Both the position numbers and the translations under genes were made by a program. The notes beneath the pieces were generated by a model. The model had not been told where the DNA came from. It made no database searches and saw nothing but the letters and a program-made list of their open reading frames with translations. From assembly GCA_038030265.1 (NCBI GenBank), contig CM075938.1, positions 57,405,189 through 57,469,188 on the forward strand: a DNA stretch of 64,000 bases, given 5' to 3'. This document shows positions 20,861 to 28,054 of the stretch, piece after piece (position 1 is the stretch's first letter; the number at the start of each line of letters is the position of its first letter). The stretch is from Corythucha ciliata (taxonomy: Eukaryota; Arthropoda; Insecta; Hemiptera; Tingidae).

Positions 20861-21336
20861 TGTGCTGCCACCGTAATTCCCTCTCCCTCCCATCCAGCCC
20901 TGTAGGCCCATCAAGGCTTAGGCACCTCGCCGATTAGGCCTGGATTTTCACGACCCTTTGGTCGTGCGGGCCATTTTCTACAACCTAACTATTTACTCCT
21001 GAAGCGTCTTCAACTTCAAAAACTTGATTTTATTTTTAAAAACTAGCGTTTTTTTACAATGTTCACAAAGTACAAAAACGCCTATTGGAATTCCGCCCAA
21101 CAACCATCCGCAGTTTGAATACTTTCAAAAGGTTGTAGTCATCGACATTACTTGACCCTTTGGTTTTGGTGGGTGTGTGGGGCGGGTGTTTTCATTGTGT
21201 TTCAAATTATAATTCTTCACGGTTAATTAAGGAAAATCCGTGGCGAACACACATACTCACAAAAAAAAAAAAACGGAAACGCCGTCGCTTAGTATTACAG
21301 TGCAGTTGTCACTGTGGTGAAGGCGAGTGTCAAATA

Positions 21337-22304
21337 ATGGGTTGCGGTCATTCTAAGGATCATCCAAGAAATGTAATAATTAACACCGCTAGTCCATCGT
21401 CTTATTCAAATTTATTTATTTATTTTTTACCCCGCAGGCAGAGCTAGTGAAAATTAAAAAAAAATACGACGCCGAACCGATCAAAAGGGCTAAACTTGTC
21501 AACGTTTGGGTCATCGGTGAGTTATCTTAAAACAGCTTTCCCTCCCCTCCAAACCTTTTGTTGTTTGTTTTTCATTATAAGGTGGTGACAAGGAAAACTC
21601 TTCAAAATTGGCCCAAATGATATCCGAACGTCAAAAATATTTGCTAGTGACTGAAGACTACCTATTGGGAAAAGAAGTTGAAAATGAGACAGTCCGAGGG
21701 AAAATAATAAAAGAAATTTTGGACGACAAGGGGACTATTTGCCCGGTATTTGAATTTTTAGATGTGCACCAAAAATTATTTAAATATTTTATACTTATTT
21801 ATTTAAAGGGAATCGTTTTGGATTTGACCGTCGAACTCATTTTGAGTCGACTTGACGACAACTTGAAGGGAATCGTTTATAACGGTATTCCCAGGGATCG
21901 GGAGCAGGCTTGGCATTTACAGAAAATGGTGAGTTTCAAATTTATTAATTTTATTTATTATGAGTTTATTTAAATCAAATTTAAACGAAACAAACTCGGA
22001 CAGGTGGGACCGGCCAGTCTTGTTATTTACTGCGAGCTTAAAGGGGACGCTCTGAAAAGGGCTCTGGCCAGAGAGGGTGAAGATTTGGAAGTGTTAAGGG
22101 GGAGAGTGGAGCATTTTGAGAAATCCGTGTTCCAGCTGTCGAAGCATAAGACGACGATGAATGTAAAAAACAAAACAAAAAACAAACCAAAAAACGTGGA
22201 AATGCGACAAAAAAAAGTTTAATTTTTAGGTCGACGGAGAAGCTCCGCCGGACGTGGTTCTCAACGCTTGCATTGAAAGACTAAACGAACTTTCCGGGCG
22301 ATAA
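21337..22304 (+). CDS. Adenylate-kinase-like protein lacking P-loop and LID (putative pseudoenzyme)
   Basis: Six exons in consistent phase: 21337-21372, 21438-21516, 21582-21745, 21809-21928, 22004-22162, 22230-22304, giving about 210 aa. The fold order of AK1 is kept: V-W-V-I-G-G at the first beta strand, the NMP-binding region, a N-G-I-P-R motif and a C-terminal helix. The catalytic apparatus is gone. The P-loop G-G-P-G-S-G-K-G-T is replaced by G-G-D-K-E-N-S-S-K. The NMP arginine of G-D-L-L-R is a glycine, and D-G-Y-P-R is N-G-I-P-R. The LID segment is about nine residues shorter and lacks the T-S-G-R-x-D-D-N-E block. The N-terminus M-G-C-G-H-S-K is a plausible N-myristoylation site, as in AK1-beta forms. 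Intron positions match the canonical AK1 gene just downstream, so it is a tandem duplicate. Intact exons and splice sites argue against a dead pseudogene. Confidence 0.85.
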
Positions 22305-22586
22305 AAAAGTTACAATATTAAAACATCCTCCCCCCCCTCATTTATGTATTTAGCGTTAATTTTTAACTCTGGCACGGTCTCCTGACGGAAGAACGGTAAT
22401 TCGATACTTTATTGTCCTTGGACGAGAAATTCACGACGGATTTCATTGTTATTGATTTTGTCATTGTTTCGGACTCCCATGACTATAAAAACAAAATTAT
22501 TGAATTTTTTAAAAGGTCTAATTGTCTCTCTCTACCTCTAAAAAAAAAACAAAAAAACCGTCGACCCTCCCCTTCCCCCTTTCCCG

Positions 22587-22771: not shown

Positions 22772-24035
22772 GTGAGTAAATATTTACTTTTTTTTGACTG
22801 TTTGTATTGGCGGGGCCTGCGAAGTTGGCGGTGATGGTTGTGTGGTGGGAGGGGGCGGCATTGGTAGTAGTGTCCTTGGAGCTGTGAATAAATGAATAAA
22901 TAAATAAAAACGATTATTTTGCGTTATCGTGTGTGATTTTGGTAGTTTTTGAACTGTTCCTGTACGTGGTTTAGTCGAATAAAAATGTGGAAAACTGTTC
23001 TTTTGCCAAGATCACGTTATATTACTCGTGCTCGTGCCAAGCTCGAGGTCCTACGAAAAGAGGACAGTAAAAGTCACAAAATAAATTCAATCAAACTAGA
23101 ATTTTACCGTACTTTTTATTTTATACTGCCTCCCCCCCATCCCACCCATGCCCATCCCCCCGACGTGGTACATGTGCTGGTCAAACTTTTACCAATAATT
23201 GACATAAAATTCGTGTCCCATAAACTGCCCCCCCCCCTCCAAGGAGGGCAAAAATTTACCCCCCCCCCTCCAACACACCCCATTAATCCATTAATGAAAT
23301 ACCTACGTAGTACGGTGACTGAAAACTGATGACAAAGTTTACAATTTTAATAGAGAGAAATAATCACAAAATTACATCATTCGGAGCTAAAATGTCCTCG
23401 AAATTGTAAGTTTCGGGTTTAATATGCTGCAAATTGCGCATTTATGGTCTCAACCTTCGTACAATTGCAAATTTTAGGGATCTTTTTTTAGAGGCCGTGG
23501 ACCCAGGTGCGATAGCACAATGCCTGAGAAATTATAGCCAAGGGCTTACTGGTCTCCGGGCTAAAAATCTGCAGAATGGCCACAGTTTTGGGCTCCAACC
23601 ATCGGTGAAATCGTCATTTTCCCGTATACTATCGCGAAATGTCTGTTTCCGCGAAATTTCAAGTTTCGAGGGTCTTCCCATGTACAGTGACTGCGGAACT
23701 CGGGCTAGTACCAAGCCGGCCTTGACGGTGCCCAAAATCTTCTTGACGAATAGCCGCATAATTGCTGCATTTTGAAGGTAAATGCCCGTGAAATTGGAAT
23801 TTTCCAGGCTGAATATTCATGATTTTGCAAGTTTCACGTCTTAATTTCAGCGAAACTGCTAGTTGCAGGGTCTTGTGGGCGTGAATCCTGGGCGAACTAG
23901 CCCCGAACTCGCCCTTAACTTTTATTTTTTATTTATTTTTTGTCAATTTAAACTTGAATGAGTTTGCGTGTTTGGGTCATAATTTGAGCAAAATTACAAG
24001 TTCTTTTTTCTTTATGTGTCCCAGCAATTAATTAA

Positions 24036-24349
24036 TTGCAAATTAGACGACCCTTGTCTTAGGACTTTTCAAGGGATTACGTGAGAGGCGTAAGCCTCTC
24101 AGGCTAGCTCAGTGGCAGAGCGCCTGGCGCGAAACTAGGAGGTCGTGGGTTCGAATCCCACCCTGGGAGCAATTTTTTCTCGGAACTCAAAACAAGTAAA
24201 AAATGGTAAGTATTTAGCTTCAATAAAGTTTAATTCTTTATTTTCAGCCTCCCCACTCCCTCGAATTCACTGCAGGGTGACTAGGGTGGTGCGGTGAGGG
24301 GGGAGTAATCCCTTGAAAAGTCCTAAGACAAGGGTCGTCTAATTTGCAA
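24036..24349. mobile_element. TIR element enclosing a tRNA-like Pol III unit
   Basis: Positions 24036-24080 and 24305-24349 are perfect 45-bp reverse complements. Between them lie a tRNA-like sequence with a T-run terminator and about 120 bp of non-coding DNA. The element sits in a family-C minisatellite. Target duplication is hard to define because the target is repetitive; TGCA or TTGCAA are possible. Exact arm identity suggests recent insertion. Confidence 0.8.
24097..24169 (+). tRNA. tRNA-like sequence, probably a pseudogene or SINE-type promoter
   Basis: A 73-nt cloverleaf can be drawn. The 7-bp acceptor stem (one U-G pair) is 24097-24103 with 24162-24168. The D arm is GCTC/GAGC, the anticodon stem CCTGG/CTAGG, and the T arm GTGGG-TTCGAAT-CCCAC. 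A- and B-box promoter elements are well preserved and TTTTTT at 24173-24178 would terminate Pol III. Faults: three bases instead of two separate acceptor and D stems, and the anticodon loop CGCGAAA lacks U33. The formal anticodon CGA (Ser) conflicts with the short variable loop. A 7-bp hairpin (24083-24089/24094-24100) overlaps the acceptor strand. Not trusted as a functional tRNA. Confidence 0.55.
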
Positions 24350-25429
24350 GAAATTACAAGTTTCCTGGCTGAACATACGCGACATTGACCGTTTCGGGTC
24401 CGAATAATTTGAAAATGCAAGTTTCAGGTGTTCATTTAAGCAAAATGGCAAGTTTAAGGGTCGGTTAAATTTGGAGAAATTGGAATTTTCGGTACCAGTT
24501 TGCAATTCTTTTTTTTTTCTTTGTGGCCTCGGACTCCGGCCGAGCCGATCATGACAAACCGCGTTTTAGGCTGACGAGACCTGTACATACGCTGTATCCC
24601 CAACAAAATTGAAGACTTTTGGATGCAAATATCTGCGAGATTGTATGTTTAAAGTCAAAATTTTCGCAAAATTGCTTTCCGGTCCTGATTTCAGCGAAAT
24701 TTCAAGTTTCTGTTTCTGCGTATATATATATATATAAGTAGGCTGGCTAGCTGTCTGACTGCGCCCATACCATGACAAATAGCCGTGCAATTGCAACATT
24801 TAGGCCCGATTTCATCAACTTCTTGAACCATGATCAACAACTAATCATGATTACAATGTAAACACTTATATCAGAATTCCAATGGATCGTTATTGGCTAC
24901 TAATCACGATCAACTTTAAACGAGATCAATTTTGTTGGTGAAAATGGGCCTTAGAGTTGAATATTTGTGAGTTCCCACATTCGGGTCCTAATTTGAGCTC
25001 AATTTTCAAGTTTCGTATGGCTAAATATAAGCGAAATTGACAATTTCGGGGCTCCGGGTCTTGATTCTTGCGGAAATACAAGTTTCTGGTCTTCATTTCA
25101 GCAAAATTACCAGTTGCGAGTCGCTTAATTTCGAAGAAATTGCAAGTTTTGGTGCTAAATATCCATGAAATTGCATGTTTGCATTTTTTTTTCATAAACA
25201 AATAAAATTGCAACATTTTGGAGGCAATACATGCGAAATTAGATCGGCTAGAAGGCCCTGACTGAGCCCATTAGAGCCGGCTTTAGACATTTGGCGCCCC
25301 CGGGCGAATCTTTCACCAGCACCACCATGAAGTCACTGTAGACAATAAAGCTTTTTCGCTTTTTCCAAAATGGCCGCAAAATTACCTCCGGAAACCGTGG
25401 CTTGTCATTTACTCAATTTTCTGTGAATT

Positions 25430-25574: not shown

Positions 25575-26245
25575 TTTCAAACAAACAACTCTAACCACAA
25601 AAAGCACTAACCACAAAAAGCTCTAATCACAAAAATCTCCAACTACAAAAAGCTCTAATCACAAAAATAGATCCGACCACAATAGCTCTAATCACAAGCA
25701 ACTCTAACCACAAAAAGCCCTAACCACAAAATTAGCTCCGACCACAATAGCTCTAACCATAAAAAGCGCCAACCACAAAGGTCTAACCAGAAAAAGCTTT
25801 AACCTCAAAAAGCGCTAACCACAAAAAGCATTGACTCTAACAACATTCTCGAAAAAATCCAACCTCAAAAAGCTCTAACCATAAAAAGCTTTGACCACAA
25901 ATAGCTCCAATCACAAAATTAGCGACGACCACAATAACTCAAACCTAAAAACAAATCCAACCCAACAAAAACGACAAGAAAAACACCAACAAAAAGCTTT
26001 GACCACATGAAGCTCAAACCACAAAAATCTCCCAGCTTTTTCCGTCAATATTAGCTCCGACCACGATAGGTCTAACCCCAAAAAGCTCTTATCACGAAAA
26101 GCTCAAGCCACAAAATTAGATCCGCCACAATAGCTCTAATTACAAACAACTCTAACCACAAAAAGCGCCAACCACAAACAACTCCAACCACGAAAAGTTC
26201 TCGTCACAAAAGCTCTAACCGTAAAAAGCTCCCACAAAAACGGAA
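25575..26245. repeat. ~16 bp tandem repeat (family D)
   Basis: Around 35-40 copies of a short unit, CCACAAAAAGCTCTAA, with substitutions and one-base indels. It lies in AK1 intron 1 just upstream of the coding exon. No coding potential. Confidence 0.85.
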
Positions 26246-26320: not shown

Positions 26321-28054
26321 ATGGCGGACACGGTAAAATTGAGTGGTTTTTTGTTGATATTGGAAAGAGAAGCGATCGGGGGGGGGGGGAGGGTCCGAGA
26401 GGTGATTGGTCCTCATAACAGCATGACAACTAGTCCGAAGTTAAAAATAATTTTTTAATTGGTGAACCATGTGTAACGCTGTTTAAAATGTTACTAGGGA
26501 ATTGCATTGGTTATTGTTACTGTCAAAATTTCTAATAAAAAAAAAATGACCCAATGACGCGAAAAACGAAAGCGCCGAACTTGCAGTCTTCAACTTCTGG
26601 CCAGTCCGAGAGGGGTGGAAACTATGACAGCTTGAAATTTATTTCAGTAAAAAACAAATAAAAATCCAAATCCCCCCCCCCTCTTCACTACACAATTTAG
26701 ACTCTCCATTTCGTTAAAACTCACTTTTGTTCTAAAAATGGGTTTCTTTTTCTCGCCGCGCACTGATTTAATTCTATAAAACTCGTAGGCGGTCAAAAAA
26801 TTCGGCCGGTACGGGTGGGGGGGGGGGGACTTTGGTCTTCGCCCATAATCTTAAAATAAATATTTTGCATTTCGGGAGGAATTCCCTCTTTCCCCTCCCC
26901 CGATGGTACCCGACGATGACCCTTAGGGGAGGGGGAGGAGGAGGGCTAACCGTAACATGATCGAGGTCAGTTCTATTTTGTTTATGAAATCACTCACTCT
27001 CGGTGGTTTTCACTCATTATTTGGCGCTATTTTCTTGTTATATTGTTTCGTTTCGGTGTGTCGCGTGTATCGTCGTTCTAACGGTCAAATACTATTTTTT
27101 CAGGATATTCAAGTCCCAGACACGTCGAGAATACAAAATGCCGGCTTCCCTATAATTTGGGTTTTAGGTATGTTCTCAACTCCCCCCCCCCTCCTCTATC
27201 ACTCCATGACATGACGATTTAAAAGTATTTTTCTGACTTGGACTGGTATGGGTGGCCTGCTGCTGGGGGTTTCGTAAACAGGCGGTCCCGGCTCGGGTAA
27301 GGGTACGCAATGCGACAAAATTGTCGCCAAGTATGGCTTTACACACATATCAACTGGCGACTTGTTGAGAGCTGAAGTGGCGTCGGGAAGCGAGCGAGGC
27401 CAGGCGTTGGATAAAGTGATGAAGGAGGGTCTACTCGTGTCCTCGGTTGGTCGCCTACAATTAACGTTTTAAAACAATTCAGAGAAACTCACTAATTTTT
27501 TTTTTTTGCTGGGGGCGGCGAAAGAAAGTCGTCATGGCTTTACTGGCGGAAAAAATGCTCAAAGAACTGGATTCTACCAAAGGCTACTTGATCGACGGCT
27601 ACCCCAGGGAGTTGACACAGGGACGCGAATTTGAAAGACTCGTAAATTATACAGCCCCCCCCCCCACACACCTCACTGCGTAACTTTTCATTTTGTTTTC
27701 ACCCTCAAAATCAGATTGGAAAGTGTAAATTGGTCCTCTACTTCGAAGCAAAAGATGAAACCCTCGTTGAAAGGCTCCTGTTTCGAGCTAAAACCTCTGG
27801 TCGTCAAGATGACAACGAAGAGACAATAAAGAAAAGACTGAACACTTTTCATTCACACAACGACCCAATTGTTCAAGAGTACGCCTCTGTAACTAAAACG
27901 GTTGGTCTTGTTAACAACCCCCCCCCGTCTCTCTCTCTCACCCTCAAGCAACAACTAAAATTCGATCGATTATTTTGTTTAGATTTCAGCGGAAGACACT
28001 CCAGAGAATATTTTCGTCCAAGTAGAACAATCCATAGACGCTATTTTACACTAA
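26321..28054 (+). CDS. AK1: Adenylate kinase isoenzyme 1
   Basis: Catalyses ATP + AMP to 2 ADP in the cytosol. Exons 26321-26332 (M-A-D-T; non-coding part from 26287), 27104-27167, 27282-27445, 27525-27641, 27715-27900 and 27983-28054 join in phase to about 204 aa, close to the usual AK1 length plus a short extension. All hallmarks are present: P-loop [12 protein letters not shown] site S-T-G-D-L-L-R, D-G-Y-P-R-E, and [14 protein letters not shown]. The first exon is the least certain; an alternative first exon could use the ATG at 26957 with donor GAG|GTCAGT. Introns 2, 4 and 5 are short with a sense-strand C run just after the donor. The paralogue at 21337-22304 shares the intron positions. 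Confidence 0.92.

Follow-up and report, generated by a model that had tools for sequence, protein, structure and literature searches.

AK1beta is described in PMC2680645 as a membrane-bound, myristoylated product of the adenylate kinase gene AK1, and the same review describes AK4, placed in mitochondria by PMC4793738, as enzymatically inactive and as keeping nucleotide binding and a partner-binding role. In the guanylate kinase (GK) domains of MAGUK proteins, as described in PMC3335814, catalysis has been lost and the LID has diverged most, with the contacts to the GMP phosphate kept and the GMP site binding phosphoproteins. Here we describe AK1L, an AK1-like gene in a stretch of 64 000 nucleotides from the bug Corythucha ciliata (contig CM075938.1, positions 57 405 189 to 57 469 188 of the forward strand; the whole stretch is called the window below). 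We establish its exon structure, the loss of its catalytic residues, its conservation and its kinship with AK1 from sequence, and we consider it somewhat more probable than the alternatives taken together that AK1L is a lipid-anchored pseudo-adenylate kinase, i.e. a non-catalytic binding module that would act probably via a vestigial AMP pocket.

We found no description of an AK1L family in the literature searched, which mostly excludes subscription journals, and no coupling of 'adenylate kinase' with 'pseudoenzyme' there (the word 'pseudoenzymes' itself occurs).

The AK1L gene and its relatives in other bugs

AK1L consists of six exons between 21337 and 22304 on the plus strand, with five GT-AG introns and no internal stop. 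The coding length is 633 nt including the stop (210 a.a.); the ATG at 21337 is the first in frame downstream of a stop at 21136 (67 codons upstream), the stop codon ends at 22304, and an ATTAAA is found after it at 22317. A preliminary description of this DNA had claimed a six-exon gene keeping the AK1 scaffold, exon phases and splice sites, without stops or broken splice sites; its coordinates proved exact, all introns are GT-AG and the 210-a.a. frame is open. The exon-3 peptide has a single match in the genome (401 Mb; best candidates scored), namely AK1L itself. The exons are as follows:

21337..21372, plus strand: AK1L exon 1, MGCGHSKDHPRN, candidate N-myristoylation/palmitoylation anchor
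21438..21516, plus strand: AK1L exon 2, lysine-rich linker and strand beta1 (WVIG)
21582..21745, plus strand: AK1L exon 3 (164 nt), ruined P-loop GGDKENSSK, alpha1, NMP domain, R44 lost
21809..21928, plus strand: AK1L exon 4, CORE; NGIPRDREQ where AK1 has DGYPRELTQ; D93 lost, R97/Q101 kept
22004..22162, plus strand: AK1L exon 5, truncated LID (residues 131-136 missing), SKHKT motif; AK1 exon 5 is 27 nt longer
22230..22304, plus strand: AK1L exon 6, C-terminal strand and helix, stop codon

The AK1L protein scores 34.5 bits with the Pfam family ADK (PF00406), above the gathering cut-off of 26.8, which places it in the ADK superfamily, and 50.6 bits with the NCBIfam AK1 family TIGR01360, below the curated cut-off of 284.1 that marks active AK1. 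The adenylate kinase fold is intact in the structures predicted for AK1L orthologues by AlphaFold2 (AF2) runs with four aligned sequences, a check that the preliminary description had proposed.

A protein search (277 candidates) returned relatives of AK1L from Apolygus lucorum (59% identity), Nesidiocoris tenuis (59%) and Cimex lectularius (53%); a partial protein from Halyomorpha halys (48% over 163 aligned residues) came from a profile search with 6385 candidates at E up to 1e-5. These species belong to the Miridae, Cimicidae and Pentatomidae, all Heteroptera (the placement of A. lucorum follows PMC8660763). A wider search (E up to 10, 7665 candidates) gave one extra match, P0005 (E 0.027), which we rejected as a family member: its sequence is that of an ordinary adenylate kinase whose P-loop is intact. 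No members outside Heteroptera were found in the two profile searches of protein collections, in which a word-based search can miss distant members, and the canonical AK1s of bugs are absent from the match lists of these searches.

Residues are numbered below as in AK1 (fish AK1 structure 5ycf), and the catalytic and binding roles of the numbered sites are those that we take them to have from general knowledge of AK1. In the window protein K21 is replaced by S, R44 by G, D93 by N and R128 by A, and LID residues 131-136 are missing; the P-loop lysine, the NMP arginine, the aspartate of D-G-Y-P-R and most of the LID are thus gone, just as had been described. The earlier claim that the P-loop glycines are lost holds for G18, G20 and G22, but the window protein keeps G15 and G16. 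Across the family, P17, G18, G20, K21 and G22 are absent from all four members covering the P-loop, with G15 kept in 4/4 and G16 in 3/4; R44 is G or Q and D93 is N, H or Q in 5/5 members, all of which have also lost R128, R132 and the stretch 131-136. Some charged residues near the LID vary: an R at 138 occurs in the window protein only (the alignment is uncertain in the LID), D140 and D141 are retained in the Halyomorpha protein and D141 in the Cimex protein, and R149 is R in the window protein, K in three members and N in Halyomorpha. All five members retain the AMP-site residues R97 and Q101 (a point absent from the preliminary description) as well as G94 and P96, and T39 is replaced by E in four members and by Q in one.

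The search for a degenerate P-loop in sister taxa, proposed earlier, thus finds K21 absent from all four members covering it, and the same losses recur at covered sites in the independent gene models of Apolygus, Nesidiocoris, Cimex and (in part) Halyomorpha, in line with the pseudoenzyme reading. Because relatives in four other bugs share the losses, neutral decay and assembly error become less likely. Judged by its residues, AK1L has almost certainly lost catalysis.

Selection, conservation and the candidate N-terminal anchor

Instead of the ratio of non-synonymous to synonymous substitution rates (dN/dS), we used neutral simulations of substitution scores and stop codons (400 per comparison). 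In these, sequences changed by substitution without indels, every change fell on a single lineage, and the full length of 210 codons was simulated even for the partial Halyomorpha protein. At 59, 53 and 48% protein identity the neutral runs gained 5.7, 6.4 and 7.1 stop codons on average, and 3, 0 and 0 of 400 runs were free of stops, a test softened by the pre-selection of database gene models as open frames. The mean BLOSUM62 score of differing residues lies above all 400 simulated runs in each of the four comparisons, and the share of positive-scoring replacements is above the simulated range in three of them (0.55, 0.49 and 0.54). By these comparisons AK1L is kept by selection, as a pseudoenzyme would be.

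The most conserved parts of the AK1L family are the nine-residue GIPRxxEQ region (83% identity) and the N-terminal 33 residues (70%); identity is 41% in the LID, 45% in beta1/P-loop, 46% in the C-terminal core, 47% in alpha1/beta2 and 58-61% in the rest. The P-loop and LID, which rank with the best conserved stretches of AK1 (12/15 and 18/22 residues identical between the window AK1 and fish AK1), are among the least conserved in the AK1L family. Of the residues invariant in the family, 30 are common to at least one of the two AK1s and 38 are not; 13 of these 38 lie in the N-terminal segment, where the fish sequence was not included.

The conserved N-terminal segment may be a lipid anchor. N-myristoylation follows an M-G-x-x-x-(S/T) start and then a basic residue, and an adjacent cysteine can be palmitoylated. 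All four full-length proteins, counted from MGC, fit this rule: they share the start MGC-x-x-(S/T)-(K/R)-DHP, followed by a lysine-rich stretch, with a net charge of +3 to +5 over the N-terminal 33 residues. The potential N-myristoylation start mentioned in the preliminary description is therefore kept in 4/4 proteins (the Cimex model being 16 residues longer), and membrane tethering of AK1L is likely on this pattern.

Kinship with AK1 and the local setting

A canonical AK1 gene lies ∼4 kb downstream of AK1L on the same strand (26321-28054, plus strand, 204 a.a.), with the canonical residue at each catalytic site lost from AK1L. The two genes have identical intron phases (0,1,0,0,0) and an exon 3 of 164 nt; the LID-bearing exon 5 of AK1 is 27 nt longer. 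The active paralogue that had been reported beside AK1L is thus present with intact sites. Its exons are:

26321..26332, plus strand: AK1 exon 1, MADT; inferred from reading frame and splice sites, without a genome-search match
27104..27167, plus strand: AK1 exon 2
27282..27445, plus strand: AK1 exon 3, intact P-loop GGPGSGKGT, R44 present
27525..27641, plus strand: AK1 exon 4, intact DGYPRELTQ
27715..27900, plus strand: AK1 exon 5, intact LID (RAKTSGRQDDNEETIKKR)
27983..28054, plus strand: AK1 exon 6 and stop

In the genome, matches to the window AK1 at 81-96% identity occur at its own locus only, and four other pieces match at 31-48%. An alternative MGC first exon for AK1 was looked for and rejected: the plus strand has seven ATG-GGN sites from 15 to 28 kb, and only AK1L's own reads MGC.

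AK1L and the window AK1 are 22% identical over 193 aligned positions, and the five family members range from 22 to 28%. In both sequence and structure the family matches AK1 and the related AK5 best. In a profile test with eleven rows, of which four are usable and seven, translated from the wrong strand of minus-strand loci, are disregarded, its profile gives 76.6 bits for AK1, 17.0 for an intronless adenylate kinase elsewhere in the genome and 14.7 for a domain of a two-domain insect adenylate kinase left of the window, which we take to be CG9541-like. Against known kinases it gives 62.5 bits for the best AK1, 31.4 for AK8 and 17.4 for AK4. We therefore rejected derivation from the nearby CG9541-like gene on its low score (14.7 versus 76.6 bits), though a tree test leaves room for it (p-AU 0.191), and likewise the AK8 identity implied by the Cimex record. 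In databases that protein is called adenylate kinase 8-like, and two further relatives go under adenylate kinase or adenylate kinase isoenzyme 1; our results suggest that these public records, for three of the four relatives, should be corrected.

In an 11-row tree the AK1L family groups with AK1, apart from the CG9541-like domain (support 94/96). The family itself forms a starred clade (100/100) with a stem of 3.12 changes per column and tips of 0 to 0.71; a long stem with short tips is the pattern left when a burst of change gives way to renewed constraint. A grouping of AK1L with insect AK1 that excludes vertebrate AK1 has support of 62/27, and the placement of all AK1s together has p-AU 0.531; the duplication may have come before or after arthropods and vertebrates separated. 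On profile, tree and intron phases, AK1L is an AK1-derived paralogue.

Three AK1-class genes (the CG9541-like gene, AK1L and AK1) lie within about 52 kb. The exons of the CG9541-like adenylate kinase are found ∼23 kb left of the window, at about G000:C2:57381169-57385032 on the minus strand; the gene is apparently two-domain (exon joins and domains were judged by eye) and has the P-loop GGPGSNK. CG9541 and Adk are absent from the passages searched in the main text of a Drosophila enzyme survey (PMC12869072). A 372-a.a. open frame resembling a retroelement integrase (judged by eye) is found at G000:C2:57386611-57387726, minus strand. The intronless adenylate kinase, at G000:C1:451894-452373, is intact, with its domain in one 207-a.a. 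open frame, and could be a retrocopy or a single-exon gene.

Between AK1L and AK1, at 24029-24356, 224 nt are flanked by the two arms of a 52-nt inverted repeat (96% complementary), and a tRNA-Ser(CGA)-like gene lies inside this unit at 24097-24170; the unit is perhaps a small terminal-inverted-repeat element carrying a tRNA. Just upstream of AK1 exon 1 (25581-26191) are degenerate tandem arrays with periods of 16 and 64-65 and units of the type CTCTAACCACAAAAAG.

Proposed role and comparison with known systems

We propose that AK1 was duplicated to give AK1L, that ATP binding and phosphoryl transfer would then have been lost, and that Heteroptera would have kept AK1L as a non-catalytic protein with the adenylate kinase fold. 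G2 would be N-myristoylated and C3 palmitoylated, probably forming a membrane tether with the lysine-rich linker. The working surface would probably be the vestigial NMP pocket (the invariant G-I-P-R-x-x-E-Q, with R97, Q101 and the change of T39 to E or Q), joined by family-specific new residues (e.g. KHK), and this pocket may bind a protein or a small ligand, as the MAGUK GK domain reuses its GMP site for phosphoproteins. The preliminary description had put forward a nucleotide sensor, an AK1 regulator or a scaffold as inferred roles; the kept R97 and Q101 together with the shifted conservation make us lean towards a binding or scaffold role, and it is from analogy and the conservation pattern that we infer binding.

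Several observations weigh against this proposal. The Cimex gene model starts 16 residues before MGC, which would block myristoylation if real; it is likely a mis-called start, because the other three proteins begin at MGC. The branch with support 94/96 is just under the star of the tree tool, the outgroups are long branches that meet, and the alternative in which AK1L groups with the CG9541-like domain survives the AU test. In each AF2 run a single model out of five was confident (the others scored 41-51 and 36-54), and the positive-scoring share for Halyomorpha, 0.36, falls inside the simulated range (maximum 0.45). The idea that loss was aimed at the catalytic residues was considered and found no support: 11/19 of them are lost versus 46/83 of the other AK1-conserved positions (Fisher p = 0.53), so there is no sign of anything other than lost constraint, and the catalytic positions are now ordinary positions. 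Stability of the fold could by itself explain why R97 and Q101 are kept, and transcription, localisation, acylation and binding of AK1L are predictions.

A narrower version, which we entertain only tentatively, makes AK1L the adenylate kinase-fold counterpart of the MAGUK GK domain, a lipid-anchored reader whose AMP pocket (T39 to E/Q, R97/Q101) would bind a phosphorylated or other partner protein at the membrane. It seems unlikely that AK1L instead heteromerises with the adjacent active AK1, modulating it or relocating it to the membrane: the two proteins are only 22% identical over their 193 aligned positions, and AK1 crystal structures are usually described as monomers. For such pairing speak the spacing of the genes (∼4 kb on one strand), which makes co-expression plausible, the ability of adenylate kinase isoforms to dimerise reported in the review PMC2680645, and the dead paralogue that activates its live partner in another family (AdoMetDC/prozyme, PMC5201418).

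We are equally doubtful that AK1L is a sensor reporting the energy state at the membrane, with AMP or ADP bound at the NMP site but not turned over. R97, Q101, G94 and P96, kept in 5/5 members, would suit a sensor, but R44, presumably the other AMP-phosphate arginine of AK1, is G or Q in 5/5, and E or Q in place of T39, also in 5/5, might repel phosphate or fill its site. That the enzymatically inactive AK4 reportedly still binds nucleotides (PMC2680645) is again in favour of a sensor. That AK1L is still an enzyme, with another chemistry or substrate, is very improbable: the fold is intact in the orthologue models and databases call three of the four relatives adenylate kinases (one 8-like), but AK1L has lost the P-loop lysine, three P-loop glycines, D93, R44, R128, R132 and most of the LID, and conservation within the family is among the lowest where the catalytic stretches used to be. 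Least credible of all is a decaying pseudogene or an assembly artefact, for which the stem of 3.12 and the lost catalytic residues fit relaxed constraint during part of its history, but against which stand the intact frame and splice sites in the window, the same losses in three other species (plus a fourth at covered sites) and substitution scores beyond all neutral simulations, with the caveat that database models are pre-selected for open frames.

AK1L has the intron phases of the neighbouring AK1, and AK1beta is membrane-bound and myristoylated, as we propose for AK1L; unlike AK1, AK1L is without the catalytic lysine, R44, D93, R128, R132 and a full LID, and unlike AK1beta, a splice form of AK1, it is a separate gene. 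The CG9541-like kinase is of the adenylate kinase class with an altered P-loop (GGPGSNK) as well, but in it the P-loop lysine and the D of DGFPR are still present, and it scores 14.7 bits versus 76.6 for AK1. AK4 is likewise an inactive adenylate kinase, but is mitochondrial and a weak match (17.4 versus 62.5 bits for the best AK1). A live AK1 and a dead copy 4 kb apart, with matching exons and a well-studied fold, form a natural before-and-after pair, in which it can be tested how a nucleotide kinase becomes a binding protein. Here the MAGUK GK domains (e.g. the GK domain of Dlg) are the nearest parallel: a nucleotide kinase fold with catalysis lost and the NMP-phosphate contacts kept, in AK1L R97 and Q101. 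These domains derive from guanylate kinase and sit in multidomain scaffolds, whereas AK1L has one domain only, derived from AK1, and a candidate lipid anchor; the resemblance is one of analogy, not kinship, and if the MAGUK GK-like reading is true, a nucleotide kinase would have been turned independently into a signalling adaptor in AK1L.
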